This document shows, piece by piece, positions 3,042 to 21,400 of a DNA stretch of 64,000 nucleotides. This stretch comes from Ruminococcus sp. AF31-8BH (GTDB lineage Bacteria > Bacillota > Clostridia > Lachnospirales > Lachnospiraceae): assembly GCF_003460605.1 (NCBI RefSeq), contig NZ_QTVN01000007.1, positions 62,001-126,000 on the forward strand, read 5' to 3'. Both the position numbers and the translations under genes were made by a program. How positions within the stretch are numbered: position 1 is the stretch's first letter; every line of letters starts with the position of its first letter. Under the pieces are notes generated by a model. That model had not been told where the DNA came from. It made no database searches and saw only the letters and a list, made by a program, of their open reading frames with translations.

Positions 3042-3062
3042 ACCTTTTGCCCCTGGTATCTT

Positions 3063-4085
3063 CTATATGGAGTCGCGGGCTATCAGTATTACATCCAGAA
3101 GAGCCTCTTTCCCTGTATATGCAGCTGGATTTTCAATTGCTTTTAAAAGCTCTGAAACAGCCAGCTCAGCTTTTTTCTCCATGTCCTGGTGAATGGTAGT
3201 AAGCCTTGGAACTGTAAGACGGGCATATGTAATATCGTCAAATCCCGCAATTCCAATATCTGCAGGAATGCAAACACCTCTGGTGGCAAGATAACTGATA
3301 GCCTCTATTGCATAAAAATCAGACAGAAAAAAGACCGCAGTTTTTTGAGGAAAAGGAATCCGTCGTATTAATTGCTGATAGAAGCTTTCTCTGGTGAGAG
3401 TGGTTTCTCCGATATTGATAAAACGGATTTTTTTGCTGCTGTTTTTTTCTGTAAGCCTGGCAAACATTTCTCTTGCCCCGTTCCAGCGTGTCTGATCAAT
3501 ACCATAATCACTGGTTGCACAGACAAAGATATCGTGATAGCCACATCCCAGAATATATTCGATCATACGGGAACCGCCGGTGAAATCATCCAAACCAATG
3601 TTAGTTACAAAAGGGCTGCCCTGAGAGCTTCCATAGGCATCAATAGAAATAACTGGCTTGTGAATCAGAGACCAGATCTTATTGCAGTCATTTCGAGAAA
3701 AGGATAAGGCAACAACACCATCAATATTCCATGCCATTACAGTGTGGAAAACTTTATTTACATCATCTGTAGAATACAGCATGATATAATATCCCTGCAT
3801 TTGCAGCTTTTCTTCAATAAATCCGATGATTTTCCCATAAAATGGATCAGATATTATAGAATTTTCATATTTTCTATGTGCATGTATGACCAGAGCAATC
3901 ATTCTGGAGCTGGTGTTATTTAATACGTTCAGTCCTAATTTTTGCACATATCCCATTTCCTGAATCAATTTTTCAATTAATTCTATTGTAGCAGGAGACA
4001 CCTTCTTTGTCTTTCCGTGAATTACATTTGATACTGTAGTAGTACTTACTCCGGCACGATTTGCAATATCTTTGATTGTTGTCAT
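3063..4085 (-). CDS. LacI-family transcriptional regulator of the alpha-glucosidase gene
   Basis: This 340-residue protein begins with a LacI helix-turn-helix (TIKDIANRAGVSTTTVSNVIHG), then the hinge helix and a periplasmic-binding-protein-like effector domain ending in the typical GFDDITYARLTVPRLTTIHQ. It is transcribed away from the GH31 gene. Two near-identical palindromes with a central TA step lie in the 279-base gap, as expected for its operators. The natural inducer is probably an alpha-glucoside such as maltose or isomaltose, inferred only from the neighbouring enzyme. Confidence 0.88.
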   Translation of the reverse strand: MTTIKDIANRAGVSTTTVSNVIHGKTKKVSPATIELIEKLIQEMGYVQKLGLNVLNNTSSRMIALVIHAHRKYENSIISDPFYGKIIGFIEEKLQMQGYYIMLYSTDDVNKVFHTVMAWNIDGVVALSFSRNDCNKIWSLIHKPVISIDAYGSSQGSPFVTNIGLDDFTGGSRMIEYILGCGYHDIFVCATSDYGIDQTRWNGAREMFARLTEKNSSKKIRFINIGETTLTRESFYQQLIRRIPFPQKTAVFFLSDFYAIEAISYLATRGVCIPADIGIAGFDDITYARLTVPRLTTIHQDMEKKAELAVSELLKAIENPAAYTGKEALLDVILIARDSI

Positions 4086-4182
4086 ATAAATACTTCCTAT
4101 AATTGATTTATCAAATTATAACAAAGCTTTTGGCGCTTGTCAAAAGTACACAAAAACAAAAATATTCTATTATACATTAAGT

Positions 4183-4258
4183 AGGTTATATACATAACCT
4201 ATTGACGAATGACAAACATGATGATATGTTTATTTTACATAAGTTATGTACATAACTT
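4183..4258 (+). promoter_or_regulatory. Promoter of the GH31 gene flanked by two LacI-type operators
   Basis: TTGACG at 4202-4207 and TATGTT at 4225-4230 are separated by exactly 17 bases. Operator 1, AGGTTATATACATAACCT (4183-4200), abuts the -35 box. Operator 2, AAGTTATGTACATAACTT (4241-4258), is a perfect 18-base palindrome just after the predicted start site. The centres are 58 bp apart. Both share the core GTTAT-N4-ATAAC, so one dimeric repressor, most simply the divergent LacI protein, should bind both. Confidence 0.75.
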
Positions 4259-4364
4259 AGTGAAAATTATGGATAGCCTGCGATTTCAGATAAATTACTG
4301 TTAAGACCCCATAAAGTAAGAGTCTGCAGAATTTGTTCTGAAGCCAGATGAAAGGAAGAATGAG

Positions 4365-6356
4365 ATGATCAGAAAATACCGATATGGCACGCCATTTGAT
4401 ACAGAGGCCTTGATTAAGAATGTTGACAGCGCGAATGGAGAATTTCCCTACGGAAAAATCAGTCTGGACAATGGCTTTGATTTTACATATATAATGGATG
4501 AGGATGATATCGTCTATGGGCTTGGAGAAGCGAACCGTGGAATCAACAAAAGAGGATATTGTTATATCAGCAATTGTACAGATGAGCCCAATCATACGGA
4601 AGACAAGCGCTCTTTGTATGGCGCACATAACTTTATCATTATAAGCGGCAAAACTACATTTGGTCTGTTTTTCGATTATCCATCAGCAATTACCTTTGAC
4701 ATCGGATACACCAGAATGGATACCTTAAAGGTTTCTTGTGGAGCGGCTGACCTGGATGTATATGTGCTTGAAGGGGAGTCTGCCTATGACATTGTGAAGC
4801 AGTTTCGTCATGTAATCGGACGCAGCTACATTCCTCCGAAATTTGCTTTTGGTTTCGGCCAGAGCAGATGGGGCTACACTACAATGGAAGATTTTCGCAA
4901 GGTGGCAGCAGGATACCGTGAGAATCATATCCCATTAGACATGATCTATATGGATATTGATTATATGGATGCTTATAAGGACTTCACCGTAAACCCGGAA
5001 AATTTCCCTGATTTTCCTGCATTTGTAAAGGAAATGAAAGAACAGGATCTTTATCTGATCCCTATCATTGATGCTGGTGTGAAGGTTGAAAATGGCTATG
5101 ATGTTTACGAGGAAGGGGTAGAAAACCGTTACTTCTGTCAGAGAGAGGACGGAAGTGACTTCGTTGCGGCAGTATGGCCTGGGGATACCCATTTTCCAGA
5201 CGTTCTAAATCAGGATGCCAGAAGGTGGTTCGGGGACAAATACCGTATTCTTATTGACCAGGGCATCGAAGGTTTCTGGAACGACATGAACGAGCCGGCT
5301 ATTTTTTATTCCTCTGAGGGACTGGAAGAGGCAAAAAAGCTTGCCGGAGAATTTGCACAGGATCAGGATGGCAGGATTCATGTCTGGGAAATGCAGGGCA
5401 AACTAAACGGGATTGCCAATAATTCAGAGGATTACTGTAGATTTTATCACAATGTAAATGGTGAAAAGATCCGTCATGATAAGGTACACAATCTCTTCGG
5501 CTATAACATGACAAGAGCAGCCGGAGAAGCCTTCCGGCGTATTGATCCGCAAAAGCGCTTCCTGATGTTTTCCAGATCCTCCTATATCGGAATGCACCGC
5601 TACGGTGGAATCTGGATGGGAGATAACAAGTCCTGGTGGTCACATATTCTTCTGAACCTGAAAATGCTTCCGTCTTTGAATATGTGCGGCTTTTTGTATA
5701 CAGGTGCGGATCTTGGAGGATTTGGTGCAGATACAACCAGAGATCTGGTGCTTCGCCATATGGCACTTGGTGTGTTTACGCCTCTTATGCGAAACCATGC
5801 AGCTCTTGGAACAAGAGAGCAGGAATGCTACCAGTTTGAGGATATTGAGGATTTTCGCAATGTTGTAAATGTCAGATACCGCCTGGTACCGTATCTGTAC
5901 AGTGAGTACATGAAGGCTGCATTAAATGATGATATGTATTTTAAACCTCTTGGCTTCGTTTACCCGGATGACAAGATGGCGGTCCGGATAGAGGATCAGC
6001 TGATTCTTGGAAACGAGATTATGATCGCTCCTGTTTACCAGCAGAATGCAAGAGGACGATACGTATATCTGCCTGAGGAAATGAAGTTTGTAAAATTCCT
6101 TGCCGATGGAACTATTTCGGAAGAGGTTCTGCAAAAAGGTGTTCATTATGTAGACATTGCATTAAATGAGGTTCCTCTCTTTATCCGCAATCACAAATGT
6201 ATCCCTGTTGCTGAAGCCGCCCAGTGCGTAAAGGACATTGACACAGCAAAGCTGCAGCTTCTTGGCTATGATGGCAGCAGCTATCTTCTGTACGAGGATG
6301 ATGGAATCCATAAGGAATATGAAAACCCGGAGAATTACAGGAAATTAACAAAATAA
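4365..6356 (+). CDS. Glycoside hydrolase family 31 alpha-glucosidase
   Basis: A 663-residue cytoplasmic enzyme (no signal peptide). It shows the GH31 order: N-terminal beta-sandwich, GFGQSRWGYTTM, IPLDMIYMDIDYM, and the catalytic signature GFWNDMNEPAIF, whose aspartate D307 is the expected nucleophile. RSSYIGMHRYGGIWMGDN follows and then the C-terminal sandwich. It would release glucose from alpha-linked oligosaccharides. GH31 also contains alpha-xylosidases and other activities, so the exact substrate is open. The ribosome site GAAAGGAAG precedes the ATG. The divergent LacI gene and paired operators point to substrate-induced expression. No sugar transporter lies beside it. Confidence 0.9.
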   Translation: MIRKYRYGTPFDTEALIKNVDSANGEFPYGKISLDNGFDFTYIMDEDDIVYGLGEANRGINKRGYCYISNCTDEPNHTEDKRSLYGAHNFIIISGKTTFGLFFDYPSAITFDIGYTRMDTLKVSCGAADLDVYVLEGESAYDIVKQFRHVIGRSYIPPKFAFGFGQSRWGYTTMEDFRKVAAGYRENHIPLDMIYMDIDYMDAYKDFTVNPENFPDFPAFVKEMKEQDLYLIPIIDAGVKVENGYDVYEEGVENRYFCQREDGSDFVAAVWPGDTHFPDVLNQDARRWFGDKYRILIDQGIEGFWNDMNEPAIFYSSEGLEEAKKLAGEFAQDQDGRIHVWEMQGKLNGIANNSEDYCRFYHNVNGEKIRHDKVHNLFGYNMTRAAGEAFRRIDPQKRFLMFSRSSYIGMHRYGGIWMGDNKSWWSHILLNLKMLPSLNMCGFLYTGADLGGFGADTTRDLVLRHMALGVFTPLMRNHAALGTREQECYQFEDIEDFRNVVNVRYRLVPYLYSEYMKAALNDDMYFKPLGFVYPDDKMAVRIEDQLILGNEIMIAPVYQQNARGRYVYLPEEMKFVKFLADGTISEEVLQKGVHYVDIALNEVPLFIRNHKCIPVAEAAQCVKDIDTAKLQLLGYDGSSYLLYEDDGIHKEYENPENYRKLTK

Positions 6357-6389
6357 GCAGGTGCTTAGTGAAGCAGTTGTTACCAGGAC

Positions 6390-6567
6390 GTGAGTTCACA
6401 ATGTATATTCATCGCAGGTCGTCGCAACACTTCGCCGAGCTAACTGCCAACTGCGACTAAACATCTCAGGAGAGCCTTCGATGTTAAGTCTTCGTAGACA
6501 GTGGATCTCGTCTCCGTTAAGAGCGCTCCTGAAATGACCTGCTCACGAATATACATTGTGAACTCAC
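6390..6567 (+). repeat. 178-bp palindromic repeat element, copy 1
   Basis: It is bounded by imperfect terminal inverted repeats of about 31 bases starting GTGAGTTCACAATGTAT. Further inverted pairs lie inside (CTCAGGAGAGC against GCGCTCCTGA). A second copy of the same length, 38161-38338, lies in opposite orientation with only five mismatches by my count. A 5' flank resembling TTAGTGAAGCA is also shared. It has no coding capacity and looks like a MITE or a palindromic RNA-type repeat. Confidence 0.8.
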
Positions 6568-6645
6568 TGGTTTCATCTACTGCAGATGCAATCTGCTGGC
6601 AACAAGCTTGAAAAAAGCATATGTCCGCTATTATGGCGAACTGCT

Positions 6646-6811
6646 CTAGAGCGTGTTTGAAAAATCATTCCCACAATCTGCACGCCCCACTTTGCGGTAT
6701 ATTTTGCCCGAATTCAGTTGCCGTAGCCCGCTACGGCGCCCTCATCCGGACAAAATCTCCCACAAATTGTGACGCACATCTTGCAGAAAGCCTTTTTCAA
6801 ACACGCTCTAG
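6646..6811. mobile_element. MITE-like element with CTAGAGCGTGTTTGAAAAA terminal inverted repeats
   Basis: The ends CTAGAGCGTGTTTGA and TCAAACACGCTCTAG are perfect inverted repeats, and the inverted match continues inside with a central GCCGTAGcccgCTACGGC hairpin. At 166 bp it is non-coding. Its right end merges into the ribosome-binding site of the next small gene. A shortened relative lies at 43111-43174. The 79 bases between the two elements here show nothing recognisable. Confidence 0.75.
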
Positions 6812-6823
6812 GAGGTGGAAAGA

Positions 6824-6976
6824 ATGAATTGGAAAGAATTATGGATGACACTTTTTGGAACCTGTGAATGGCTCGGACTCAATATGGGATTCTGGGTATC
6901 TATGGCTGCTGTGCTGCTGATTGTGATTATCATGAATGCCATATTCTGGGGAATGAAAACAAACCGCTGCAAATAG
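6824..6976 (+). CDS. 50-residue single-pass membrane protein next to cstA
   Basis: An excellent AGGAGGTGG ribosome site (6810-6818) precedes ATG. The peptide runs MNWKELWMTLFG... and has one hydrophobic helix (about residues 22-43, rich in Val/Ile/Met) and a short basic tail. It converges on the CstA transporter gene and shares a bidirectional terminator with it. Its consistent initiation signal and membrane character suggest a real gene, possibly an accessory subunit of the transporter. That role is inferred only from proximity. A MITE-like element sits directly upstream, so its native promoter may have been displaced. Confidence 0.6.
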   Translation: MNWKELWMTLFGTCEWLGLNMGFWVSMAAVLLIVIIMNAIFWGMKTNRCK

Positions 6977-6992
6977 CTGCAGCGGTTTGTTT
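6958..6992. terminator. Bidirectional terminator between the 50-residue gene and cstA
   Basis: AACAAACCGCTGCA (6958-6971) pairs perfectly with TGCAGCGGTTTGTT (6978-6991). The left arm overlaps the last codons of the small gene, which is common for compact bidirectional terminators. Confidence 0.85.
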
Positions 6993-7028
6993 GAAGAAAT
7001 CTGTCAGTCTATGCTGATTTTACTGATT

Positions 7029-8720
7029 TTACTGCTTTTTAACCTCTGGTTTTTCCAAAAGCTTTTTAATACCCTGGATTGCTACCAGTACGCCAAGTAT
7101 TAACAGCAGGACTGCAAATATCAGCTGTAAAGAATTTCCAAGATCAAGACCGGTGGTAACAAATGCCTTGGAAAGCTTTACAATTGTCATGCCAAGTGCT
7201 GTAAAGGTTACTGCCATCATGAATACCATTGGAACCCAGAGCATCCAGCCCTGACGTTTTGTCTTCTTTAAAAATACTGCACAGGCTACAAGCGCAAGCA
7301 CAGATAACAGCTGGTTTGCAGAACCAAACAATGGCCAGATTTCTGCGTAACCCACTTTTGTAAGCAGATAGGCCAGTACAAGTGTGATAATCGTTGCAAA
7401 ATATTTATTAGTCATCACCTTTAAAAACGGGTTCATATTTTCTTCATCTGTATCAGAATCAAGGAAAAACTCCTGGAAAGAGAGACGTCCTACTCGTGCT
7501 ACAGAGTCAAGTGATGTCAGTGCAAATGCAGATACGGCAAGGTTAATTAATGTAAACACTAATGAATGGGACAAACCAATTACAGAAAGGAAATTTGCAA
7601 TTGCACCTGCAAAAATCTGCGGCTGGGTTGTCAGTCCTTGTGCTGCCGCCTCACCATCTGCAAAAGATGCTACTGCAATCAGTGCGATGATGGCAAGCAT
7701 GCTTTCCATGAGCATTGCGCCAAATGAAACAGGGAGCATGTTCTTTTCATTTTTTATCTGTTTGGATGCAGTACCTGAGGATACCAGGGAATGGAACCCA
7801 GAAACCGCACCACAGGCAATGGTTACGAATAGAATCGGAAACATATACTGTCCATCAACATTAAAGCTTGTAAAAGCTTTTAGATTACAGGAAGGATTAG
7901 CAACAAATACACCAATTACCGCACCCACAATCATAAAAATAAGCAGATAACTGTTCAGATAATCACGTGGCTGAAGCAATGCCCATACAGGTGCAACACT
8001 GGCTACCAGGATGTATGCAAATATAATAAGGTGCCAGGTTCCAAGACTTATATACATCGGGAATTTAAGTCCCAGTGCAATTGCGGCTACCAGTAATACA
8101 ATCGCAAATGCTGTATTGATCCATTTATTGAATCTTGTGTATTTCAGGAAAAATCCAAGTCCAACAGCTTCTATTATGAATAACATGGAGGTAGTTGCGA
8201 CAGCTCCGTTTGCGGCTACCTTTGTAACTTCGCCTGCGTCGTTTGCGGCAAATCCATTAAAGGTTCCTGCTACTACGTCTGCGAATGCTGCAACAACCAG
8301 AATACAGAACAACCAGCAGAATAAAAGGAATAATTTTTTTCCTAATTTTCCAATATATGCTTCGATGATATACCCGATTGTACGTCCTTTGTTCTTTACA
8401 GATGCATACATGGAAGCAAAATCCTGAACTGCACCAAAAAATACACCGCCAATCAGAATCCACAGCATAACTGGAAGCCAACCAAAAATTGCAGCCTGGA
8501 TAGGTCCGTTGATCGGGCCTGCACCTGCAATTGAGGCAAACTGATGTCCGAATACAACATTAGTATCTGCAGGTACATAATCAACTCCGTCCTCCATCTC
8601 ATATGCCGGAGTTTTTGCTTTTGGATCAATTCCCCATTTGTTCTGCAGATAGCGGCCATACAGAAGATATGCGCCACCCAGAACTACAATGGCAATCACC
8701 ATCATCATAATTCCACTCAT
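7029..8720 (-). CDS. cstA: Carbon starvation protein CstA-family peptide/pyruvate transporter
   Basis: About 563 residues and strongly hydrophobic, with more than a dozen membrane segments. CstA signatures are present: PTNVVFGHQFASIAGAGPINGPIQAAIFGW near the N-terminus, GAVSGFHSLVSSGTASKQI in the middle and WPLFGSANQLLSVLAL near the end. CstA proteins import peptides or pyruvate during carbon limitation. An earlier in-frame start at 8780 would add 20 residues. The GAGGAG site 7 bases before the codon at 8720 favours MSGIMMMVIAIVV as the real N-terminus. The upstream untranslated region holds a perfect 15-base palindrome. Confidence 0.9.
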   Translation of the reverse strand: MSGIMMMVIAIVVLGGAYLLYGRYLQNKWGIDPKAKTPAYEMEDGVDYVPADTNVVFGHQFASIAGAGPINGPIQAAIFGWLPVMLWILIGGVFFGAVQDFASMYASVKNKGRTIGYIIEAYIGKLGKKLFLLFCWLFCILVVAAFADVVAGTFNGFAANDAGEVTKVAANGAVATTSMLFIIEAVGLGFFLKYTRFNKWINTAFAIVLLVAAIALGLKFPMYISLGTWHLIIFAYILVASVAPVWALLQPRDYLNSYLLIFMIVGAVIGVFVANPSCNLKAFTSFNVDGQYMFPILFVTIACGAVSGFHSLVSSGTASKQIKNEKNMLPVSFGAMLMESMLAIIALIAVASFADGEAAAQGLTTQPQIFAGAIANFLSVIGLSHSLVFTLINLAVSAFALTSLDSVARVGRLSFQEFFLDSDTDEENMNPFLKVMTNKYFATIITLVLAYLLTKVGYAEIWPLFGSANQLLSVLALVACAVFLKKTKRQGWMLWVPMVFMMAVTFTALGMTIVKLSKAFVTTGLDLGNSLQLIFAVLLLILGVLVAIQGIKKLLEKPEVKKQ

Positions 8721-8772
8721 AATCTTTCTCCTCGTCTTTCTTTGAATATAGAATATATTAAAAACGCCCTTG

Positions 8773-8787
8773 TTATCCAACGGATAA
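8773..8787. promoter_or_regulatory. Palindrome TTATCCAACGGATAA upstream of cstA
   Basis: A perfect 6-bp inverted repeat with a 3-base centre lies about 55 bases upstream of the chosen cstA start, in a 321-base intergenic stretch (8721-9041) that is otherwise AT-rich and featureless. It could be an operator; the binding factor is unknown. Confidence 0.35.
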
Positions 8788-9041
8788 TAAAGGCGGAAAT
8801 TTTCTTTATTAATTATCTAATGTTTTACTACTTTTTTTATAAAAATTCAAGAAGTATTTTGTATATGATTGATAATTTTACTCTAATGTTTTTGTGGAAT
8901 TTTTCAATAAAAAGAATTAAGAGAAAAAATGGGAATGAACAGATTTGAGTTTTGGTTGTGAAATAGAAGAAATGAGATTAAAATAAGGAATCGGAGCAGG
9001 AGACGAAATTGTTTTTGGAAGAGATTAGAAGGAGCAAAAAA

Positions 9042-9512
9042 ATGATCATCAGAAAAGCAGAAGAAAAAGACATTCCGAGAATTATTGAACTGTTGGGACA
9101 GGTGCTGCAGATTCATGCAGACATAAGACCTGATATTTTTATTCCCGGTACTACAAAATATACAGCAGACGAACTGACTGAGCTTTTAAAAAACGAAAAA
9201 AATCCAATATATGTTGCCGCCAATGAAGCTGATATTTGTGTAGGATATGCATTTTGTCAATTACGGGAACAACCTTTTTCAAATAATATGGTGCCGTTTA
9301 AATCCCTTTTTATAGATGACCTGTGTGTGGACCAACAAGCACGAGGACAGCATATCGGTGAAAGATTATTCGAACATGTAAAAAATGAGGCAAAGCAAAA
9401 GGGATGCTATGAAGTAACCTTGAATGTATGGACAGGAAATATTTCAGCAGAAAAATTCTATGAAAAGATGGGAATGAAAACAAAAGAAAAACAGATGGAA
9501 TATATTTTATAA
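9042..9512 (+). CDS. GNAT-family N-acetyltransferase
   Basis: About 156 residues with the acetyl-CoA fold: a start MIIRKAEEKDIPRIIELL, the central strand FIDDLCVDQQARGQHIGERLF with the Q/R-x-x-G-x-G/A-type pyrophosphate loop (ARGQHIG), and the C-terminal LNVWTGNISAEKFYEKMGM typical of RimI/GNAT proteins. The start at 9042 is chosen because AGAAGGAGC lies just upstream; a TTG at 9009 has no such site. The substrate is unknown. It stands alone, followed by a strong terminator. Confidence 0.85.
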   Translation: MIIRKAEEKDIPRIIELLGQVLQIHADIRPDIFIPGTTKYTADELTELLKNEKNPIYVAANEADICVGYAFCQLREQPFSNNMVPFKSLFIDDLCVDQQARGQHIGERLFEHVKNEAKQKGCYEVTLNVWTGNISAEKFYEKMGMKTKEKQMEYIL

Positions 9513-12448: not shown

Positions 12449-14596
12449 ATGGAGTATATAGCGCATAAAGATAATGAAAGAGTACAGACAGTAAAAGAAC
12501 ACTTATATGGTACAGCTGAATTAGCAGGATTTTTTGCGGAAAGATTTGGGAAGAAGGAATGGGGTTATTGTTGTGGAATGTTACATGACCTTGGGAAATA
12601 TTCCAAAGAGTTTCAAAGAAAAATTCGAAATGATACAGGTGAAAGAGTAGATCATTCAACTGCAGGTGCGAAAGTCTGCAATGAAAAAGGCGGTTACTAT
12701 TCTATTTTAAGTTACTGTATTGCCGGACATCATGCCGGACTTCCAGACTATGGAAACACTGCAATAGGCAATAGCTTATGTGGAAGATATAATAAAAAAA
12801 TCTGTGATTTTAAAAATTATGAAAAGGAAATAGAAATTCCACAGCTTCATACGGATCCAATTGTGTTTGATCCAACAAAGAATCTGGATTTTTCATTAAG
12901 TGTTTTTGTAAGGATGTTATATTCATGTTTAGTAGATGCCGATTTTTTGGATACGGAAGCTTTTATGAAAAATGAAAATACTGGCCGTGTTGCGGGAGAA
13001 ACAATGCAGATTCTGGAGGAAAAATTAGAACAATATATTGAGCCTTGGTTAAGCAATGCTGAACTGGAAAGTATCAATGGAAGAAGAACAGAGATTTTAG
13101 CTCACTGTATGGAAATGGGGAAGCGAGAAAAGGGAATTTATCGCCTGACAGTTCCAACCGGAGGAGGGAAGACGATTGCTTCTCTGGCCTTTGCATTAAG
13201 ACATGCAGTGAAGCATCAGATGGATCGGATTATTTATGTGATTCCTTATACGAGTATAATTGAACAGAATGCCCAGGTGTTTCGGGAAATTCTTGGTGCA
13301 GAAAATGTATTGGAAAATCATTGCAATGTAGAATATAAAGATTCAGAAGAATTTTATCCAATGCAGCTTGCAAGTGAAAATTGGGATAAACCTGTAGTTG
13401 TGACAACAAATGTGCAGTTCTTTGAATCTTTATTTGGAAACAAATCATCAAAATGCAGGAAAATCCATAACATTGCAAACAGTGTTGTAATTTTTGATGA
13501 AGCACAAATGCTGCCGATGGATTATTTAAAACCTTGTATTTCTGTTTTACAGGAATTAGTCGATAATTATGCCTCAAGTATTGTTTTGTGTACTGCAACA
13601 CAGCCTGCGCTTGAAATGTTTTTCTCATCCAAAGATAAAATGATAGAATTATGTCCATGTGTGGAAGAACAATTTCGTTTCTTTGAGCGAGTTACTTATG
13701 AAAAAATAGGAAAAATTTCTCAAGACGAACTGATCATGCGAATGCAGGGAGATCAAAGTATACTTTGCATTGTGAATACGAAAAAAGCCGCACAGGAGCT
13801 GTACAAAAAGCTGCGGGAAGAAAGAAAAAATATATATCATTTATCCACAAACATGTATCCAAAACATAGAAAAAGAGTATTGAAATTAATTCGGGAGCGA
13901 CTGGATAATAATGAAAAATGTATTGTTGTTTCAACCAGTCTGGTAGAAGCTGGTGTAGACTTGGATTTTGACATTGTTTACAGGCAGATTGCAGGATTGG
14001 ATTCTCTGATTCAGGCAGCCGGAAGGTGCAACAGGAATGGAAAGAAGGACTTAGCGAAAAGTAAAGTTTATATTTTTGATTTCATTGACGAAAAGAAAGT
14101 GACAAATCAAAAATTGCAGATTGAAACAGCAGCATCTGTTATACAAGACTATGAAAAAGTAGATGACTTGACAGGGATTTCTGATTATTTTAAACGTCTT
14201 TATCATTATCGCGGAACCAGCCTGGATAAGAAAAACATCATGGGCGAATTTAAACAGATGCGGTTTAATTTTTCAAAAGTAGCAAAAGAGTTTAAGCTTA
14301 TTGAAGAAAACACAAAGATGATTTATATCAACAAAGAATTAAAAGCAGAAGAATTATTGAACGAATTGAAAACAAAGGGAGCATCGAAAGAAAGACTTCG
14401 AGAAGCCGGTCAATATTGTGTTCAGATTTATGGAGATGAAAGGAACGAAAACAGTTTATTTGATAAGCTGTACAGTAACGGAATGCTTCGGCCAATCTCA
14501 GAAGATATGCAGGATTTTTATGAACTGGTGTCGCAAAAACAGTATTCTGATGAGTGGGGATTGGATTTTTCAGTGGATGATGTGTTGATGATGTAA
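12449..14596 (+). CDS. cas3: Type I-C CRISPR helicase-nuclease Cas3
   Basis: About 715 residues. The N-terminal HD nuclease has CGMLHDLGKYSKEF, DHSTAGAKV and AGHHAGLPDY. The superfamily 2 helicase has Walker A VPTGGGKTIAS (K241), box II IFDEAQMLP, motif III CTATQPALE, motif V STSLVEAGVDLD and motif VI QAAGRCNRNG. All key residues look intact. Cas3 is recruited by target-bound Cascade and degrades the non-target strand. The start at 12449 follows a GAGGTG site; an upstream in-frame ATG at 12374 would translate through debris. Unusually, a hairpin terminator follows and the remaining cas genes have a separate promoter, so cas3 appears to be its own transcription unit. Confidence 0.95.
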   Translation: MEYIAHKDNERVQTVKEHLYGTAELAGFFAERFGKKEWGYCCGMLHDLGKYSKEFQRKIRNDTGERVDHSTAGAKVCNEKGGYYSILSYCIAGHHAGLPDYGNTAIGNSLCGRYNKKICDFKNYEKEIEIPQLHTDPIVFDPTKNLDFSLSVFVRMLYSCLVDADFLDTEAFMKNENTGRVAGETMQILEEKLEQYIEPWLSNAELESINGRRTEILAHCMEMGKREKGIYRLTVPTGGGKTIASLAFALRHAVKHQMDRIIYVIPYTSIIEQNAQVFREILGAENVLENHCNVEYKDSEEFYPMQLASENWDKPVVVTTNVQFFESLFGNKSSKCRKIHNIANSVVIFDEAQMLPMDYLKPCISVLQELVDNYASSIVLCTATQPALEMFFSSKDKMIELCPCVEEQFRFFERVTYEKIGKISQDELIMRMQGDQSILCIVNTKKAAQELYKKLREERKNIYHLSTNMYPKHRKRVLKLIRERLDNNEKCIVVSTSLVEAGVDLDFDIVYRQIAGLDSLIQAAGRCNRNGKKDLAKSKVYIFDFIDEKKVTNQKLQIETAASVIQDYEKVDDLTGISDYFKRLYHYRGTSLDKKNIMGEFKQMRFNFSKVAKEFKLIEENTKMIYINKELKAEELLNELKTKGASKERLREAGQYCVQIYGDERNENSLFDKLYSNGMLRPISEDMQDFYELVSQKQYSDEWGLDFSVDDVLMM

Positions 14597-14604: not shown

Positions 14605-14683
14605 GGGGTGTATGAAAAAAATTCATACACCCTGTTTGCTTTAAAAAAAATATTAATATTTCAATCCACTGGTTCCCCAGACA
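14605..14683 (-). ncRNA. Candidate CreA/CreR-like RNA built on a degenerate CRISPR repeat
   Basis: Read on the minus strand from 14683, the sequence is (T)GTC, then a CTGG-GGAA-CCAG stem-loop, then GTGGATTGAAAT. The first three and last 12 bases are identical to the first array repeat, and a smaller base-paired stem replaces the original one. The 'spacer' that follows starts ATTAATAT and runs into T8, then an A/G-rich stretch, then the hairpin at 14606-14632. A near-consensus promoter (14690-14718) would place the start site exactly at the repeat. The spacer's first eight bases recur at 14773-14780 in the promoter of the DUF3990 gene. No expression evidence is available. Confidence 0.5.
14606..14632. 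terminator. Terminator-type hairpin between cas3 and the minus-strand ncRNA candidate
   Basis: GGGTGTATGAA (14606-14616) pairs perfectly with TTCATACACCC (14622-14632). It lies 9 bases after the cas3 stop. T-rich sequence follows on the plus strand and a T8 run fills the loop on the minus strand, so it could end transcripts from both sides. Confidence 0.7.
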
Positions 14684-14689
14684 AGCTTA

Positions 14690-14718
14690 AGTATACATGA
14701 ATTAATTTGTTTTTACAA
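14690..14718 (-). promoter_or_regulatory. Promoter driving the degenerate-repeat RNA
   Basis: On the minus strand TTGTAA (14718-14713), 17 bases, then TATACT (14695-14690). The predicted first base falls around 14683, at the first base of the repeat-like sequence. Spacing and box quality are good, in a region with no minus-strand protein gene to explain it. Confidence 0.55.
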
Positions 14719-14769
14719 TTGTATTTTTTATATCTTCATTAAAATTTTATATAACAAACACGAAAAGCA

Positions 14770-14798
14770 TTGATTAATATGTAGAAGTGTAGTATAGT
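14770..14798 (+). promoter_or_regulatory. Promoter of the DUF3990-DUF3791-cas5...cas2 operon
   Basis: TTGATT (14770-14775) and TATAGT (14793-14798) are separated by exactly 17 bases, 53 bases before the DUF3990 start. All genes from 14851 to 21058 follow on the same strand with tiny gaps or overlaps, so this single promoter can drive both the inserted pair and the Cascade/adaptation genes. The ATTAATAT octamer overlaps its -35 box. Confidence 0.65.
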
Positions 14799-14850
14799 GA
14801 GATTAAGAAATAGCAGTGAACCGTAGAAGCGATTAATAAGGAGACATTGT

Positions 14851-15318
14851 ATGGTTTTATATCATGGAGGCAATGACGTTGTAGAATTTCCGGAAATCAG
14901 AAAAGCACTGTATCATAAAGATTTTTATTTTGGCGTTTATTGTACAAAACTTCCGGAACAGGCAAAACGGTGGGCAACACGTTATGGAACATCAGGAGTA
15001 TTGAATTGCTATGAATATACACCTGATAATAAGTTGAAGTATCTGGTTTTTGACGAAATGACAGAGGAGTGGCTTGATTTTATCGTGCATTGCAGAAGTG
15101 GAAAATCACATACTTACGACATTGTGGAAGGACCTATGGCAGATGACACTATTTATAATTATATCCAGAATTATATAGATGGAAAAATTTCAAGAGCAGC
15201 TTTCTGGGAATTGGCAAAATTCAGTCATCCGACACATCAGATCAGTTTTCATACGATCTCTGCATTAGATACGCTAAAGTATGTGGGAAGTGAGGAAGTA
15301 TATGGGAACAAAAAATAA
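14851..15318 (+). CDS. DUF3990 protein, ART-like putative toxin of a pair nested in the cas operon
   Basis: The 155-residue protein begins LYHGGNDVVEFPEI and continues DFYFGVYCTKLPEQAKRWA, the signature of DUF3990, whose N-terminal pattern (YHG, then a Y-containing strand and a QA..WA helix) resembles ADP-ribosyltransferase folds. No signal peptide or membrane segment is present. AAGGAGA precedes the ATG. It overlaps the next gene by 17 bases and together with it lies between cas3 and cas5, where no known Cas protein of type I-C belongs. A toxin role is inferred from the fold resemblance and the pairing with DUF3791, not demonstrated. Confidence 0.7.
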   Translation: MVLYHGGNDVVEFPEIRKALYHKDFYFGVYCTKLPEQAKRWATRYGTSGVLNCYEYTPDNKLKYLVFDEMTEEWLDFIVHCRSGKSHTYDIVEGPMADDTIYNYIQNYIDGKISRAAFWELAKFSHPTHQISFHTISALDTLKYVGSEEVYGNKK

Positions 15319-15742
15319 TAATAGACTGTTTTATACATGTAGTCTGATTGAATATATTGGTCGTCAACAAAAAAGAAGTAGAAAAGAGGTGACAGATTTT
15401 CTTGGAAAAGAAAGAATTGCCAGGATTTATGAATATGCAGATGTTTTTCACTGTGAACCTATAGAAAAAGTTGCATATGAGTTTTCGGAAGAATGCAAAA
15501 TAGAAGAGGGGAATTTTGACAATGTATCTGAATGCCATTATAAAATCCCGGATTATTGGGATATTGGTGAAGTATATGAACGGTTAATCGAAGACAGCTA
15601 TTCAGATGATGAGATTTTAGAAGGACTGTGGGAGGTATATCACTCCTGGATCGATCAATGTATATCGAATTTCAATACAGATTTTTATTATCAGCCAAGG
15701 GATTATATAGCAGTTTGTTATAAGAAAGGAGAGGTATTATAA
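15302..15742 (+). CDS. DUF3791-type protein, putative partner of the DUF3990 protein
   Basis: About 146 residues. The N-terminal 70 residues (LFYTCSLIEYIGRQQKRSRK, then IYEYADVFHCEPIEKVAYEF) match the small DUF3791 pattern, in which a short helical protein with a D-V-x-H motif commonly neighbours DUF3990 genes. The C-terminal half (DIGEVYERLIED, then SNFNTDFYYQPRDYIAVCY) matches the relic at 12236-12352. The start at 15302 is preceded by GAGGAAG; an ATG at 15281 lies deeper inside the upstream gene. The stop is one base before the cas5 start, so the pair is translationally locked into the cas operon. It would be the antitoxin if the pair is a toxin-antitoxin system. Confidence 0.65.
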   Translation: MGTKNNNRLFYTCSLIEYIGRQQKRSRKEVTDFLGKERIARIYEYADVFHCEPIEKVAYEFSEECKIEEGNFDNVSECHYKIPDYWDIGEVYERLIEDSYSDDEILEGLWEVYHSWIDQCISNFNTDFYYQPRDYIAVCYKKGEVL

Positions 15743-15743: not shown

Positions 15744-16406
15744 ATGGGGATTGGCGTAAAAGTAAAGGTATGGGGGGATTATGCCTTGTTTTCACGTCCC
15801 GAGCTTAAAGTGGAACGATGCTCTTATGATGTCATGACGCCGTCCGCAGCAAGAGGAATTCTGGAAGCAATTTACTGGCACCCCGGAATGCGTTGGATTA
15901 TCGATAAGATTTATGTGAAAAATCCGATTCGTTTTACAAGTGTTCGAAGAAATGAAGTAAAGAGCAAAGTTTCCAGGAGCAATGCTTTACAGGCATATAA
16001 CGGAGATGAGAGACCATTTTATATAAGCACAAAGGAAGACATTGTTCAGAGAGCATCTTTGATTTTATGTGATGTATGTTATGTGATAGAAGCCCATTTT
16101 GAATTGACCAATAAGGCAAATGAATCTGATAACGCAGGAAAATTTAAGGATATCATAATGCGAAGACTAAAACGGGGTGAATGCTATCACATGCCATATT
16201 TTGGATGCAGAGAGTTCCCGGCACAGTTTTGCTTATGTGAGGAAAATGACATAACGACTATATATAGTGAAGTACCAGAGAAGGATTTGGGATTCATGTT
16301 ATATGATATGGACTATAGTAATCTGGAGAATATTCAACCCATGTTTTTTAGAGCAGTTATGAAGAAAGGGGTATTAGATCTTACAGATTGTGAGGTGTTT
16401 CGATGA
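15744..16406 (+). CDS. cas5c: CRISPR-associated protein Cas5c (crRNA endonuclease, Csd5/Cas5d)
   Basis: A 220-residue RAMP protein of normal length. In type I-C there is no Cas6, and Cas5c itself cuts the precursor and keeps the 5' handle. Visible features are the N-terminal RAMP strand IGVKVKVWGDYALFSRPELK, the stretch YDVMTPSAARGILEAIYWHP, and the glycine-rich CYHMPYFGCREFPAQF near the C-terminus. It overlaps cas8c by 4 bases. It would also be the enzyme to process the repeat-like RNA at 14605-14683, if that stem is recognised. Confidence 0.93.
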   Translation: MGIGVKVKVWGDYALFSRPELKVERCSYDVMTPSAARGILEAIYWHPGMRWIIDKIYVKNPIRFTSVRRNEVKSKVSRSNALQAYNGDERPFYISTKEDIVQRASLILCDVCYVIEAHFELTNKANESDNAGKFKDIIMRRLKRGECYHMPYFGCREFPAQFCLCEENDITTIYSEVPEKDLGFMLYDMDYSNLENIQPMFFRAVMKKGVLDLTDCEVFR

Positions 16407-18151
16407 TTCTACAGGCTTTGGAAGAGTATTATGAAAATCTTCTCCAGCAAGGAAAAGTGGCAAAAGCAGGATGGTGTCAGGCTAAAGTGTCACACGTAAT
16501 TGAATTGAATGAGGACGGAACAATAAAAGGAATAGTCTCTTTGAAACAAGAAGAGGAAAGAGGGAAAAAGAAAGTCTTAATTGCTCCAATGCTTTTCGTT
16601 CCTGAGATGGTTATAAGATCTTCTGGAATCTCTGCAAATTTCTTGTGTGATAATGCGAAATATCTGCTTGGAATAGATGAAGATGGAACAAAATCAAGAA
16701 TAATGGATTGCTTTTTGGCAGCAAAGGATAAGCATCTATCAATTTTAGGTAAAGGAAAAGGTGCAATGGCAAAAGCTATCTGTGCTTATTTTAGAAACTG
16801 GAATCCGAAAACTGCAAAAGAGAATCCGATTTTAAGAGAATATTGGGAAGAGTTGAATGAGGGTGGGAACATTATTTTTGGCATGAGAGCTTTGGAGGCG
16901 CAAGAAGACGATGAAATAAAAGCTTTATGGGAAGAAGCGAGAAATGCAGAAAGCAACGATCAGCAAGGAATCTGTCTGGTAACCGGACAGAGAACGGATA
17001 TTTCACGTATTCATAAAGGGATAAAAGGGGTTCCGGGAGCACAGTCAAGTGGAGCTGCACTGGTTTCATTTAATGCACCGGCTTTCGAATCTTATGGCAA
17101 AGAACAAAGTTATAATGCACCGGTTGGTAAATATGCAGAGTTTGCATATACAACAGCACTCAACTATTTACTCAATCAAAGAGAATACTGTTTTCCGTTA
17201 GGCGATTCAATGATTGTATTCTGGGCAGAATCCGGAAAAGAAGAATATCAGAAAACTTTTATGTCATGGATGAATCCGCAAGTGGATAATCAAGAGGAAA
17301 TGAAAAAACTGTTCGGAAATCTGCAAAGAGGTATAAGGGTAGATGTGCAAGATATCCAGTTAAACATGGAGCAAAAATTCTATATTCTTTGTCTGGCACC
17401 AAATGTAGCAAGGCTTTCTGTGCGCTTTTTTTATCAAAATTCATTTGGTAATATTATGGAGAATTTGTCCAAGCATTATCAGAGAATGGAGATTGTAAAA
17501 CCTGCCTGGGTGGAATTGGACTATTTAGGTATTCAAAAAATGTTATTTGAAACGGTCAATCAAAAGTCAAAAGATAAAACTCCGATTCCCAGTATGGCGG
17601 CAATGGTGTTAAATGCAGTTCTTCAGAATAATAGATATCCGGCAACCTTGTATACTGATACATTGATTCGAATCCGTTCAGAACAGGGGAACATTACATG
17701 TGGAAGAGCGGCGATTATAAAAGCAGTTTTAATGAAGAATTACAATTGGAAGGAAGGCGAAAAATTCATGGGATTGAACGAGGATTGCAAAGAGACAGCT
17801 TATGTTCTTGGAAGATTGTTCGCGGTATTGGAATTTATTCAAAGAGAGGCGAATCCAGGAATTAATGCTACCATCAGAGATCGGTACTTTAATTCTGCCT
17901 GTGCAACACCGGCATCTGTATTCCCTATATTAATCAAATTAAAAAACAGTCATATGAAAAAAATAGAAAGGGAATCAGCAGGAACGAAGGTGTATTATGA
18001 AAAGCTGTTAACTGAACTTATAGGTAAAATAGAATTGTCTGAGAAAATGCAGGGATTTCCAAGTCGTCTTTCACTGGAAGAACAGGGGAAATTTATGCTG
18101 GGGTATTATCATCAGGTGCAGAAAAGGTACGAGAAGAAGGAGGAGAAGTAA
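16403..18151 (+). CDS. cas8c: Type I-C Cascade large subunit Cas8c (Csd1)
   Basis: 582 residues, the usual Csd1 size, starting MILQALEEYYENLLQQGK. Typical central motifs are visible: CLVTGQRTDISRIHKGIKGVPGAQSSGAALVSFN, AFESYGKEQSYNAPVG, and the C-terminal LGRLFAVLEFIQREANPG and RYFNSACATPASVFP. Cas8c recognises the PAM and anchors the complex on DNA; its 3' part usually also yields the small subunit Cas11c from an internal start. It overlaps cas5c by 4 bases, and its stop is immediately followed by the cas7 start, so all three Cascade genes are tightly coupled. Confidence 0.94.
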   Translation: MILQALEEYYENLLQQGKVAKAGWCQAKVSHVIELNEDGTIKGIVSLKQEEERGKKKVLIAPMLFVPEMVIRSSGISANFLCDNAKYLLGIDEDGTKSRIMDCFLAAKDKHLSILGKGKGAMAKAICAYFRNWNPKTAKENPILREYWEELNEGGNIIFGMRALEAQEDDEIKALWEEARNAESNDQQGICLVTGQRTDISRIHKGIKGVPGAQSSGAALVSFNAPAFESYGKEQSYNAPVGKYAEFAYTTALNYLLNQREYCFPLGDSMIVFWAESGKEEYQKTFMSWMNPQVDNQEEMKKLFGNLQRGIRVDVQDIQLNMEQKFYILCLAPNVARLSVRFFYQNSFGNIMENLSKHYQRMEIVKPAWVELDYLGIQKMLFETVNQKSKDKTPIPSMAAMVLNAVLQNNRYPATLYTDTLIRIRSEQGNITCGRAAIIKAVLMKNYNWKEGEKFMGLNEDCKETAYVLGRLFAVLEFIQREANPGINATIRDRYFNSACATPASVFPILIKLKNSHMKKIERESAGTKVYYEKLLTELIGKIELSEKMQGFPSRLSLEEQGKFMLGYYHQVQKRYEKKEEK

Positions 18152-19063
18152 ATGAGCGAAGTAATAAAAAACAGGTATGAGTTTGTAGTATTATTTGATG
18201 TGGAAAACGGAAATCCAAATGGAGATCCTGATGCAGGGAATATGCCAAGAATTGATCCGGAAAGTGGTTTGGGTCTTGTTACGGATGTTTGTATTAAGCG
18301 AAAAATCCGTAATTATATTGAAACAGTCAAAGAAGAGGAGAAAGGGTATAAAATTTATATCAAAGAAGATGCGCCGCTTAACAGAAGTGATCGGGAAGCC
18401 TGTAAAGAACTTGGGGTGGAAGAGAGCGACGATAAAAAGGTAACAGAAGCACTCAAAAAACTTAAGAAAAATGATCCAAATGTAGATCTTAAGTTAAGAG
18501 ATTACATGTGCGAGAATTTTTATGATATTCGTACATTTGGTGCTGTTATGACAACATTTGTCAAAGCTGCTTTGAATTGTGGACAAGTAAGAGGACCTGT
18601 GCAGATTGGTTTTGCCAGAAGTATTGATCCGATCATCAGTCAGGAAGTGACTATTACAAGAGTGGCGATTACAACAGAGAAAGATGCTGAAAATAAGAGC
18701 ACAGAGATGGGAAGAAAATGTATAGTTCCATATGGACTATATCGAGTAGAAGGATATATTTCTGCAAATCTGGCGAGAAAGGTAACAGGATTTTCAGAGG
18801 ATGATCTGGAGCTTTTATGGGATGCTATTATTAATATGTTTGAAAATGATCATTCAGCTGCAAGGGGAAAAATGGCAGTACGAGAACTGATTGTATTTAA
18901 ACACAGTAAAGAATTAGGAGACTGTCCGGCATATAAGCTGTTTGATGCAGTGGAAGTATCAAAAAAGGAGGATGTGGAGTATCCGAGAAAATACCAGGAT
19001 TATAAAGTGTGTGTTCATGAAGAAACGATTCCGGATTCAGTTGAAGTGAAAAGGATGATTTGA
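18152..19063 (+). CDS. cas7c: Type I-C Cascade backbone protein Cas7c (Csd2)
   Basis: 303 residues with the Csd2 N-terminus RYEFVVLFDVENGNPNGDPD, then DIRTFGAVMTTF and GQVRGPVQIGFARSIDPI, and the C-terminal NDHSAARGKMAVRELIVF. It forms the helical backbone along the crRNA. Length and motifs are complete. It starts directly after the cas8c stop behind an AAGGAGGAGA site and overlaps the cas4 start by one base. Confidence 0.95.
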   Translation: MSEVIKNRYEFVVLFDVENGNPNGDPDAGNMPRIDPESGLGLVTDVCIKRKIRNYIETVKEEEKGYKIYIKEDAPLNRSDREACKELGVEESDDKKVTEALKKLKKNDPNVDLKLRDYMCENFYDIRTFGAVMTTFVKAALNCGQVRGPVQIGFARSIDPIISQEVTITRVAITTEKDAENKSTEMGRKCIVPYGLYRVEGYISANLARKVTGFSEDDLELLWDAIINMFENDHSAARGKMAVRELIVFKHSKELGDCPAYKLFDAVEVSKKEDVEYPRKYQDYKVCVHEETIPDSVEVKRMI

Positions 19064-19728
19064 TGGAATATAAAGAAGATGACTATTTGATGTTGTCGGG
19101 AATACAACATTTTAAATTTTGCCGGAGGCAGTGGGCATTAATTCATATCGAACAACAATGGGCTGAAAATGTTCATACAGTTATTGGTGAGTTGATGCAT
19201 AAAAAAGTGCATGATCCGATGAGTAAAGAAAAACGAAAAGATACCATTATTGTAAGAGCTCTTCCAATAGCATCCAGAAAAATGGGCATTTCAGGAGAGT
19301 GTGATGTTGTAGAATTTCATAAGTGTGAGGATGGTATTTCGTTATTTGGACATCGAGGATTATATTCAGTATTTCCAGTAGAGTATAAAAAAGGAAAACC
19401 CAAAATTACAGAAGAGGACAAACTACAACTTACAGCGCAGGCAATGTGTTTGGAAGAAATGTTTTCGACTGAAATATCAGAAGGGGCAATTTTCTACGGG
19501 GAGACAAGAAGACGAGAAAATGTATTGTTTTCAAAAGAACTAAGAGATGAAGTAAAAGAGTTATTTGATGAAATGCATCAGTATTATAGCAGAGGCTATA
19601 CGCCGAAGGTGAAAACAGGCAAATCATGCAATAGTTGTTCATTAAAAGAAATATGTCTCCCTAAGTTAGAAAAGACGATTTCAGTGACCGCTTATATAAC
19701 GCAGTCATTAAGGGAGGATGCAAGGTGA
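19063..19728 (+). CDS. cas4: CRISPR adaptation nuclease Cas4
   Basis: About 221 residues, RecB-like nuclease with iron-sulfur cluster ligands: a first cysteine in HFKFCRRQWALIH and three near the end in CNSCSLKEICLPK. Nuclease motifs GISGECDVVEF and FPVEYKKGKP are present (the D and ExK catalytic residues). Cas4 selects and trims PAM-containing prespacers together with Cas1-Cas2. The ATG at 19063 overlaps the cas7 stop (TGATG); a TTG one codon earlier is less likely. It overlaps the GTG start of cas1 by 4 bases. Confidence 0.94.
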   Translation: MEYKEDDYLMLSGIQHFKFCRRQWALIHIEQQWAENVHTVIGELMHKKVHDPMSKEKRKDTIIVRALPIASRKMGISGECDVVEFHKCEDGISLFGHRGLYSVFPVEYKKGKPKITEEDKLQLTAQAMCLEEMFSTEISEGAIFYGETRRRENVLFSKELRDEVKELFDEMHQYYSRGYTPKVKTGKSCNSCSLKEICLPKLEKTISVTAYITQSLREDAR

Positions 19729-20756
19729 AAAAATTATTAAATACTTTATATGTGACATCTGAAAATAGTTATTTGGGATTGGAAGGAGAAACGATTGTAG
19801 TATATGACAATCAAACAGAGATTGGGCGGTTGCCATTACATAATTTGGAAGGTATCGTATCATTTGGATATCGGGGAACAAGTCCGGCACTGATGGGTGC
19901 TTGCGCAGAACGGAATATTTCTATATGTTATCTAAGCCCACAAGGAAAGTTTCTGGCAAGGGTATCTGGAAAAACAAGAGGAAATGTTCTTCTGCGTGAA
20001 CAACAATATAAGAGTTGTAAGGATGAAGATATAAGCTTGAAAATTGCAAAAAACTGTATTCTGGGTAAAGTATACAATGCAAGATGGATTTTAGAAAGAT
20101 CCTTACGCGACCATGAAATGCAAATTGATTCAGAACGCGTAAAAAAAGCGTCTTTGCAGCTAAAGGATGCGTTGGAATTAATACAGAATGCAGAGTCAAA
20201 AGAGCAGTTACGAGGGTATGAAGGTGAGGCAGCCAGCATTTATTTTGGTGTTTTTAATGAATTGATATTGCAACAGAAAAAAGATTTTACTTTTAGTGGC
20301 CGTAATAAAAGACCGCCATTAGATAATGTAAATGCGATGCTTTCGTTTGTTTATACCTTATTAACAAATCAAATTGCTTCAGCACTGGAAACTGTTGGTC
20401 TGGATCCATATGTTGGATATCTTCATACAGACCGACCGGGCAGAGTGTCACTGGCTCTTGATTTGATAGAAGAATTTCGAGCCGTTTATGCAGATCGCTT
20501 TGTATTATCCTTGATTAATAAGAAGATTGTAAATGGCAAAAATTTTTCACGAAAAGAAAATGGAGCAGTTTTGATGGATGATGATTTGCGCAAAAAGGTA
20601 TTAGTAGAATGGCAAAATAAAAAGAAAGAGGTTATTACACATCCATTTTTAAAAGAAAAAGTTGAATGGGGAATGCTGCCATATGTACAAGCTATGCTGC
20701 TTGCCAGATATTTGCGCGGTGATTTAGACGGATATCCGGTATTCCTTTGGAAATGA
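19725..20756 (+). CDS. cas1: CRISPR integrase Cas1
   Basis: 343 residues with a GTG start after a GGGAGG site. Conserved elements are GIVSFGYRGTSPALMGACAERNI in the N-terminal beta domain, and in the helical domain GYEGEAASIYFG (catalytic Glu), GYLHTDRPGRVSLALDLIEEFR (catalytic His) and the Asp/Glu cluster after it. All active-site residues appear present, so the adaptation module should be catalytically competent despite the tiny array. Confidence 0.95.
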   Translation: MKKLLNTLYVTSENSYLGLEGETIVVYDNQTEIGRLPLHNLEGIVSFGYRGTSPALMGACAERNISICYLSPQGKFLARVSGKTRGNVLLREQQYKSCKDEDISLKIAKNCILGKVYNARWILERSLRDHEMQIDSERVKKASLQLKDALELIQNAESKEQLRGYEGEAASIYFGVFNELILQQKKDFTFSGRNKRPPLDNVNAMLSFVYTLLTNQIASALETVGLDPYVGYLHTDRPGRVSLALDLIEEFRAVYADRFVLSLINKKIVNGKNFSRKENGAVLMDDDLRKKVLVEWQNKKKEVITHPFLKEKVEWGMLPYVQAMLLARYLRGDLDGYPVFLWK

Positions 20757-20767
20757 GGTAAATTGCT

Positions 20768-21058
20768 ATGCTCGTACTTATCACATATGATGTTAATACA
20801 GAAACTGTATCAGGAAAAAAACGGTTAAGAAAAGTGGCGAAACAATGTGAAAACTATGGCAGACGTGTTCAGAATTCGGTGTTTGAATGTATTTTAGACC
20901 AAGCGCAAAGTGTAGTGTTAAAACAAAGTTTAATTGATATTATTGATGAGAATGTAGATAGTTTACGCTTTTATTATTTAGACAATAAATACCAGACAAA
21001 AGTAGAACATGTTGGAGTTGAACATGGAATTGCGGTAGATCAGCCACTGATTCTATAA
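20768..21058 (+). CDS. cas2: CRISPR adaptation endoribonuclease-like protein Cas2
   Basis: 96 residues with the ferredoxin-like start MLVLITYDVNTETVSGKKRL, RVQNSVFECILD in the middle, and LRFYYLDNKYQTKVEHVGVE at the C-terminus, as usual for type I-C Cas2. It follows cas1 by 11 bases and is the last gene before the leader. Cas2 dimers bridge two Cas1 dimers during spacer integration. Confidence 0.95.
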   Translation: MLVLITYDVNTETVSGKKRLRKVAKQCENYGRRVQNSVFECILDQAQSVVLKQSLIDIIDENVDSLRFYYLDNKYQTKVEHVGVEHGIAVDQPLIL

Positions 21059-21236: not shown

Positions 21237-21400
21237 GTCGCTCCCTTCGCGGGAGCGTGGATTGAAATGATGAAGAATAATTTTGAATTCGGGCTTTTTA
21301 TGGTCGCTCCCTTCGTGGGAGTGCGGATTGAAATCAGTGGAACGGAAGTAACGGAGATGTCATGCTCGGTCGCTCCCTTCATGGGAGCGTGAATTGAAAT
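21237..21400 (+). CRISPR. Short, degenerate type I-C CRISPR array (3 repeats, 2 spacers)
   Basis: Thirty-two-base repeats of the form GTCGCTCCCTTCGCGG... ending GATTGAAAT lie at 21237-21268, 21303-21334 and 21369-21400. Both spacers are 34 bases (21269-21302 and 21335-21368). All three repeats differ: repeat 2 has GTGGGAGTGCGGATT and repeat 3 has ATGGGAGCGTGAATT. In repeat 2 the stem is weakened. Repeat 1, next to the leader, is closest to consensus. The array ends abruptly in unrelated sequence. Confidence 0.95.

Follow-up and report, generated by a model that had tools for sequence, protein, structure and literature searches.

Introduction

Standalone CRISPR repeats aimed at the promoters of cas genes or of cargo genes, toxin-antitoxins included among the cargo, were reportedly predicted by computation by Shmakov et al. 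in 2023. Several small RNAs of related design have been described. RNAs of the CreR kind are reported for types I-B, I-E and V-A (PMC13131331), and for CreA RNAs a second, downstream degenerate repeat is described in most cases, with a single repeat also occurring (PMC9458426). The CrePA module is described as typically having a KilA-N protein toxin (PMC12737573). In the literature searched, no report of a CreR in type I-C was found, which is a weak negative with subscription papers lying mostly outside the search.

The locus analysed here lies in a window of 64,000 nucleotides from Ruminococcus sp. AF31-8BH (contig NZ_QTVN01000007.1, positions 62,001 to 126,000 of the forward strand) and belongs to type I-C, with the cas3 stop at 14596, the start of a DUF3990 gene at 14851 and two divergent promoter-like sites between them. 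An original prediction had read in this gap an RNA of the CreA/CreR type aimed at the promoter of the downstream operon. The core of this claim is strongly supported by conservation, the PAM, the scores of own versus swapped guides and a six-base rhythm of mismatches, whereas three of its details had to be revised, namely the position of the target, for which the TTC site at 14735-14754 is now proposed, the role of the gene pair, which is not the only client, and the label given to the partner of the DUF3990 gene. We consider it likely that the unit in the stretch 14606-14771 makes a crRNA-like RNA which would guide type I-C Cascade to the operon promoter for repression.

Results

Downstream of the gap, the operon follows the order DUF3990-partner-cas5-cas8-cas7-cas4-cas1-cas2, with the pair of the DUF3990 gene and its partner in first place and a distance of 1 nt between the partner gene and cas5c (Table 1). 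The array at 21237-21400 holds three repeats only, each slightly unlike the others; array repeat 1 (21237-21268) reads GTCGCTCCCTTCGCGGGAGCGTGGATTGAAAT.

Table 1. Features of the type I-C locus, in window coordinates
Feature	Position	Strand	Remark
cas3	12449..14596	+	outside the predicted RNA-controlled operon in the layout of the window
Hairpin of 11 bp, at which the guide RNA is predicted to end	14606..14632	-	
Guide region, 25 nt	14633..14657	-	first 17 nt (14657-14641) match the target
Solitary degenerate I-C repeat, 25 nt	14658..14682	-	GT, stem CTGG-GGAA-CCAG, handle TGGATTGAAAT
Predicted guide RNA promoter-like site	14690..14718	-	TTGTAA-N17-TATACT
TTC PAM of the predicted target	14735..14737	+	TTC rule across relatives
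Predicted 34-nt protospacer	14738..14771	+	matched part 14738-14754
Promoter-like site of the DUF3990-to-cas2 operon	14770..14798	+	TTGATT-N17-TATAGT
DUF3990 protein, toxin-like	14851..15318	+	PADLOC PDC-M10A
Partner protein	15281..15742	+	PADLOC PDC-M10B; no Pfam match
cas5c, cas8c, cas7c, cas4, cas1, cas2	15744..21058	+	
CRISPR array, three repeats	21237..21400	+	reference for repeat comparison

The elements from which the original prediction had composed the unit are all present, namely the minus-strand promoter-like TTGTAA-N17-TATACT (14718-14690), the stem-loop CTGG-GGAA-CCAG followed by a 3′ end in common with array repeat 1, and a closing hairpin. In comparison with array repeat 1, the repeat-like element at 14682-14658 has kept the handle, with GTGGATTGAAAT in common, and its stem is shorter (4 bp) and different. 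The guide that follows starts with ATTAATATTTTTTTTAA. One terminator-like hairpin was found, at 14632-14606, against a mean of 0.1 in shuffles; it may terminate the cas3 transcript on the opposite strand as well. Compared with its own shuffles, the predicted RNA of 81 nt has the better fold (z -3.55), with most pairs contributed by the end hairpin.

The best match to the guide is ATTAAaATTTTaTaTAA at 14738-14754, located immediately after TTC and mismatched at positions 6, 12 and 14. TTC is a PAM proven for type I-C in Xanthomonas, according to PMC8406640. When guide positions 1-5, 7-11 and 13-17 are scored, 14 out of 15 match, a level reached in none of 5000 dinucleotide shuffles of the stretch 14700-14850. 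A protospacer of the full 34 nt would extend to 14771, where it touches the operon's -35 box TTGATT (14770-14775). The guide has a partial match behind a PAM to a cas promoter that is itself a prediction.

The original prediction had placed the target elsewhere, at the octamer ATTAATAT over the -35 box, and had itself pointed to a possible chance match and an unusual flank. The octamer exists at 14773-14780, but 400 of 5000 dinucleotide shuffles of 14700-14850 contain it too, and its PAM side reads TTG, while the TTC rule holds across the family. These misgivings were justified, and the octamer was dropped as the target in favour of the TTC site, with its 0 of 5000 shuffles; the likelihood that the octamer is the site that matters appears negligible.

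A lone repeat with its own promoter-like site could also be a repeat mimic of the Racr or solitary-repeat type, a decoy that binds Cas proteins and has no need of a target, and a type I-C Racr is on record (PMC10651486). However, the unit belongs to cas loci of the host, with a guide that has its PAM-flanked match in the adjacent promoter region, so that a decoy function seems extremely improbable. As a separate observation, lone I-C-like repeats (GTCAGG...CCTGTGGATTGAAAT) common to several contigs were seen in viral contigs, with a near-identical unit in L127, L132 and L135 and another in L106, L117, L164 and L166. These viral repeats are possible RNA anti-CRISPRs or virus-borne guides.

The original prediction had proposed that the cas3-DUF3990 gap be compared in related genomes. 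Relatives were collected by a Cas5c search, from which the best 80 of 200 loci were taken, the nearest being Roseburia porci (L001) with a Cas5c identity of 86%. Units were searched for de novo as a lone GG[AG]TTGAANN outside arrays accompanied by a TTC-flanked site within 600 nt, requiring a match at all of guide positions 1-5 and at 8 or more of the ten positions 1-5 and 7-11. The repeat-like core proved to be kept, as 42 of the 80 relatives (best 80 of 200) hold one unit each, which together with the window gives 43 units. When TTC was exchanged for 11 other trinucleotides, the same search gave 0-4 hits, and five altered motifs gave 0-2. No unit was seen in 38 of these best 80 of 200 loci, with nine loci not judgeable for the RNA; L007 and L019 have an intact pair but no unit, and the cas3-DUF3990 gap of L021, one of the loci not judged, likewise shows none. 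The unit search, which covered handles of the GG[AG]TTGAA type, found no second one with a target of its own.

A perfect 4-bp stem was present in 36 of the 43 units, formed by ten different arm pairs, and absent in 7, as counted with G-U pairs allowed, with loops of 3-12 and with no chance control. In 36 of the 43 units the guide is followed by a hairpin of at least 6 bp, often weak, within 130 nt, and in 7 none of this length was found. In three loci, L013, L054 and L069, cas3 comes downstream of the unit, and there the predicted control would take in cas3 as well. One further unit, with a TTC match and 10 of 10 early positions matching, was found by a separate route in L201 (MT836695.1). This record (positions 1-9086) is labelled Bacteriophage sp. 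and carries cas3, the DUF3990 pair, cas5, cas8 and cas7, because of which it is probably a mislabelled bacterial fragment.

The relation between guide and target was further followed in a set unfiltered by match, comprising 33 loci (32 relatives and the window), in which the site was chosen by the scored positions, with positions 6, 12 and 18 onward left unscored. L075 was excluded, its motif hit having been judged spurious, as it lies inside an inverted repeat and was missed by the unit search. The single best site of a locus's own guide was TTC-flanked in 29 of the 33 loci, the exceptions being L004, L017, L036 and L052. The co-variation of seed and promoter, which the original prediction had suggested checking, is visible: own guides reach a mean score of 13.06 out of 15, compared with 8.96 for swapped guides, a value that represents the yield of choosing the best among many AT-rich sites, and the highest of 10000 permuted means was 10.24.

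The position profile was built from 32 loci, with L052 excluded, as no good TTC site was present in the stretch searched there, whereas the unit search found one. The match frequency is 1.00 at positions 1-5, falls to 0.22 at position 6, returns to 0.94-1.00 at positions 7-10 and 0.81 at position 11, and falls again to 0.12 at position 12. It then amounts to 0.62-0.81 at positions 13-17, 0.22 at position 18 and 0.12-0.44 beyond. Positions 6 and 12 took no part in the scoring, so the method did not produce their low values. In Class 1 complexes, the guide is described as having every sixth base flipped out (PMC11127173), and the six-base rhythm of mismatches is therefore the print that would be expected from a Cascade R-loop of about 17 nt. 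As side observations, 9 of the 10 early positions match in L004, L017 and L036, after which the match stops; in L004, read by eye, it restarts one base off, which would suit a minor insertion or deletion.

For the 36 units with an operon-strand target, differences in the guide go along with differences in the target at positions 1-5 and 7-11 (0.97 vs 0.04, figures that, like the match frequencies of positions 1-11 in this comparison, are partly built in by the filter of the unit search) and at positions 13-17, which are outside that filter (0.72 vs 0.35), and no such co-difference is seen at positions 18-34 (0.64 vs 0.64). In 17 near pairs, hand-chosen from the tree with some loci reused and not all of them closest sisters, 51 scored positions have changed in guide and target alike while still matching, and 8 on both sides otherwise; against the proposed function stand 31 that have changed in the target alone and 8 in the guide alone. 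Between the window and L001, both guide and target differ at positions 2 and 17, and between the close relatives L005 and L018 at positions 1, 4 and 11. Altogether, the 11-nt starts of the guides are distinct in 40 of the 43 units. The scores of own versus swapped guides and the mismatches at positions 6, 12 and 18 make it very probable that the RNA of the unit is a guide for Cascade, CreR being its closest likeness. The array of the window is short and the solitary repeat degenerate, as would suit an inert remnant of a CRISPR array, but the unit is kept in 42 of the best 80 of 200 relatives and own-guide matching is far above swapped matching, and a mere remnant is hardly conceivable.

Most units also agree in the geometry of their promoter-like sites. 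In 38 of 43 units the best such site for the guide RNA lies ahead of the handle, with 21-33 nt from the end of the -10 box to the GG, a spacing not fitted by L023, L035, L040, L052 and L067. On the target side, the -35 box of the operon starts 23-38 nt past the PAM in 30 of the 36 units with an operon-strand target; in the other six (L010, L012, L020, L027, L033 and L070) the best promoter-like site lies elsewhere. Seven units have the target in the opposite orientation. Among them, L037, L043, L045, L046 and L052 show an overlap of target and predicted -10 box; the target of L067 begins 3 nt past that box, and the one of L078 ends near a -35 box.

Such placement bears on the direction of the predicted control. 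In those 30 of the 36 operon-strand units the target extends to or into the -35 region and stops short of the -10 box, and a Cascade positioned directly ahead of that box could be imagined to activate or merely tune the promoter, with no repression. On the other hand, blocking fits the five opposite-orientation units, out of seven, whose target overlaps a predicted -10 box, as well as L067, where the target starts 3 nt past it, and the known CreA and CreR RNAs are described as repressing (PMC12737573, PMC13131331), which makes activation or mere tuning very unlikely and favours repression. In addition, a second TTC-flanked guide match (13 of 15) was noticed in the cas3-DUF3990 gap of L005 and L020, seeming by eye to lie over the -35 box of the RNA's own promoter-like site; it may possibly serve self-control of the RNA.

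For the two genes that open the operon, PADLOC gives the names PDC-M10A and PDC-M10B, from a collection of models for known and candidate defence systems, PDC standing for phage defence candidate. PDC-M10 is unmentioned in the literature found by one mixed search. The original prediction had named the second gene DUF3791, and this name has been refuted: the partner ORF, whose likely start is an in-frame ATG further on, near 15302, lacks any Pfam match at a threshold as permissive as E = 10, and its comparison with the DUF3791 protein of plasmid pBF9343 gave no BLASTP alignment and a profile match probability of 0.6%, which is not meaningful. The partner was modelled, with good confidence, as all helical. 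More distant DUF3990 proteins (39% identity) do occur beside a DUF3791 gene on Bacteroides plasmids. In pBF9343 (L202, 2555-4615), a conjugative Bacteroides plasmid, such a DUF3791-DUF3990 pair was observed near a gene of the zeta toxin family.

DUF3990 is assigned to the Pfam ADP-ribosyltransferase clan in PMC7955679, and in PMC4524185 it makes up the C-terminal part of an Rhs effector, followed downstream by a small gene for which an immunity function is predicted. The pair is probably an ADP-ribosylating toxin with a putative ART fold and its antitoxin, the least certain step of our interpretation. Three loci retain the RNA unit and its target with a damaged pair: in L016 the partner remains and DUF3990 is gone, in L017 only a partner-like C-terminal end is left (read by eye), and in L030 both genes are shortened. 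The lone partner in L016 fits an antitoxin role, although a single case proves little.

An intact DUF3990 within the cas locus was found in 27 of the best 80 of 200 relatives and in the window. With the nine unjudged loci omitted, 22 loci have the pair and the unit, 2 the pair without the unit, 21 the unit without an intact pair and 27 neither. Fisher's test for association of pair and unit, ignoring kinship, gives p = 8.6e-5. A tree-aware test of pair and RNA was not significant, with 5 supported pairs of which on average 1.9 changed the same way and none the opposite way; the quick Cas5/8/7 tree, with 25 of its 78 inner branches weakly supported, implies at least 13 changes of the pair and at least 16 of the RNA.

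These counts speak to whether the unit is mainly an antitoxin RNA, that is, the CreA of a CrePA- or CreTA-like module that silences the DUF3990 pair and makes Cascade indispensable, with autoregulation of cas as a by-product of the shared promoter. The unit accompanies the intact pair in 22 of 24 judged loci, an association with a low Fisher p value when kinship is disregarded, and the DUF3990 domain is the one described at the C-terminus of the Rhs effector (PMC4524185). Yet for 21 of the 43 units the cas genes follow with no intact pair, units outlast the reduced or lost pair in L016, L017 and L030, and the tree-aware test, with its 5 supported pairs, is not significant; we regard an antitoxin RNA as unlikely. 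The original prediction had the RNA shut off the pair and autoregulate Cascade, and its second half can stay, while the pair as sole client does not agree with the 21 of 43 units lacking it intact. Because of these 21 units, the simplest reading is that the RNA would be mainly a Cascade autoregulator, which covers the pair where it is present.

Discussion

According to the mechanism that we propose, the RNA would be transcribed from its own promoter-like site, processed by Cas5c and loaded into Cascade. Cascade carrying this RNA would then sit at the operon promoter and block RNA polymerase, setting its own level. Self-targeting and killing by the I-C system of Xanthomonas is described as requiring a guide of at least 27 nt behind TTC (PMC8406640), and since the match here reaches only about 17 nt, with skipped bases, binding without cutting by Cas3 would be expected.

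When free Cascade drops, be it through ordinary crRNAs, anti-CRISPRs or mutation, the operon would rise. Because the pair forms the first two genes and lies 1 nt before cas5c, it should rise with the operon, and the cas genes and the DUF3990/partner pair would increase jointly once Cascade is lost or blocked. Release of the pair upon loss of Cascade would accordingly follow from the layout, and the freed pair could act as a fallback defence. More tentatively, and with somewhat more doubt than confidence, we suggest that in type I-C Lachnospiraceae a single RNA with a lone repeat couples the autoregulation of CRISPR to a built-in suicide switch. Through this RNA, Cascade would gauge its own free level, and any anti-CRISPR disabling it would call up, from the same promoter, both newly made Cascade and a pair of ADP-ribosylating toxin and antitoxin.

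If true, these proposals would extend RNA-guided autoregulation of Cascade to type I-C, and one RNA and one promoter would join CreR-type control to the release of a toxin-like pair. The comparative record is unusually clean, as the PAM, the six-base rhythm and the matching of guide and target are all visible from sequence. Similar RNAs could be searched for as a lone repeat handle with a nearby PAM-flanked match that skips every sixth base.

In relation to the systems already described, the unit belongs to the same general kind as the standalone-repeat mini-arrays of Shmakov et al. With Racr RNAs it has in common the single repeat with its own promoter, and one of these is a type I-C example; they are, however, repeat mimics encoded by viruses or plasmids, whereas the window unit is found in host cas loci and has a promoter-matching guide. 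CreTA, composed of a CreA RNA and the RNA toxin CreT, offers in its haloarchaeal case a degenerate repeat, a TTC PAM and a partial promoter match, but the genes controlled here would encode proteins and include cas genes. In CrePA, where the CreA RNA is combined with the KilA-N toxin CreP, the likeness consists in a toxin-like protein gene predicted to be restrained by RNA and Cascade and freed by anti-CRISPRs; here, in contrast, DUF3990 and its partner have no KilA-N domain, and the pair shares its promoter with the cas genes.

From its sequence features alone, the unit is filed as one that would work like CreR. As in CreR, a repeat-like element lies beside the cas genes and outside the array, and its guide partly matches a predicted cas promoter behind a PAM. 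It differs in belonging to type I-C, in having a single upstream repeat, with a hairpin at the end and not a clear second repeat, and in that the promoter also drives the toxin-like pair in 22 of the 43 units. What would be new here is thus CreR-like control in type I-C, exerted on a promoter in common with a toxin-like pair.
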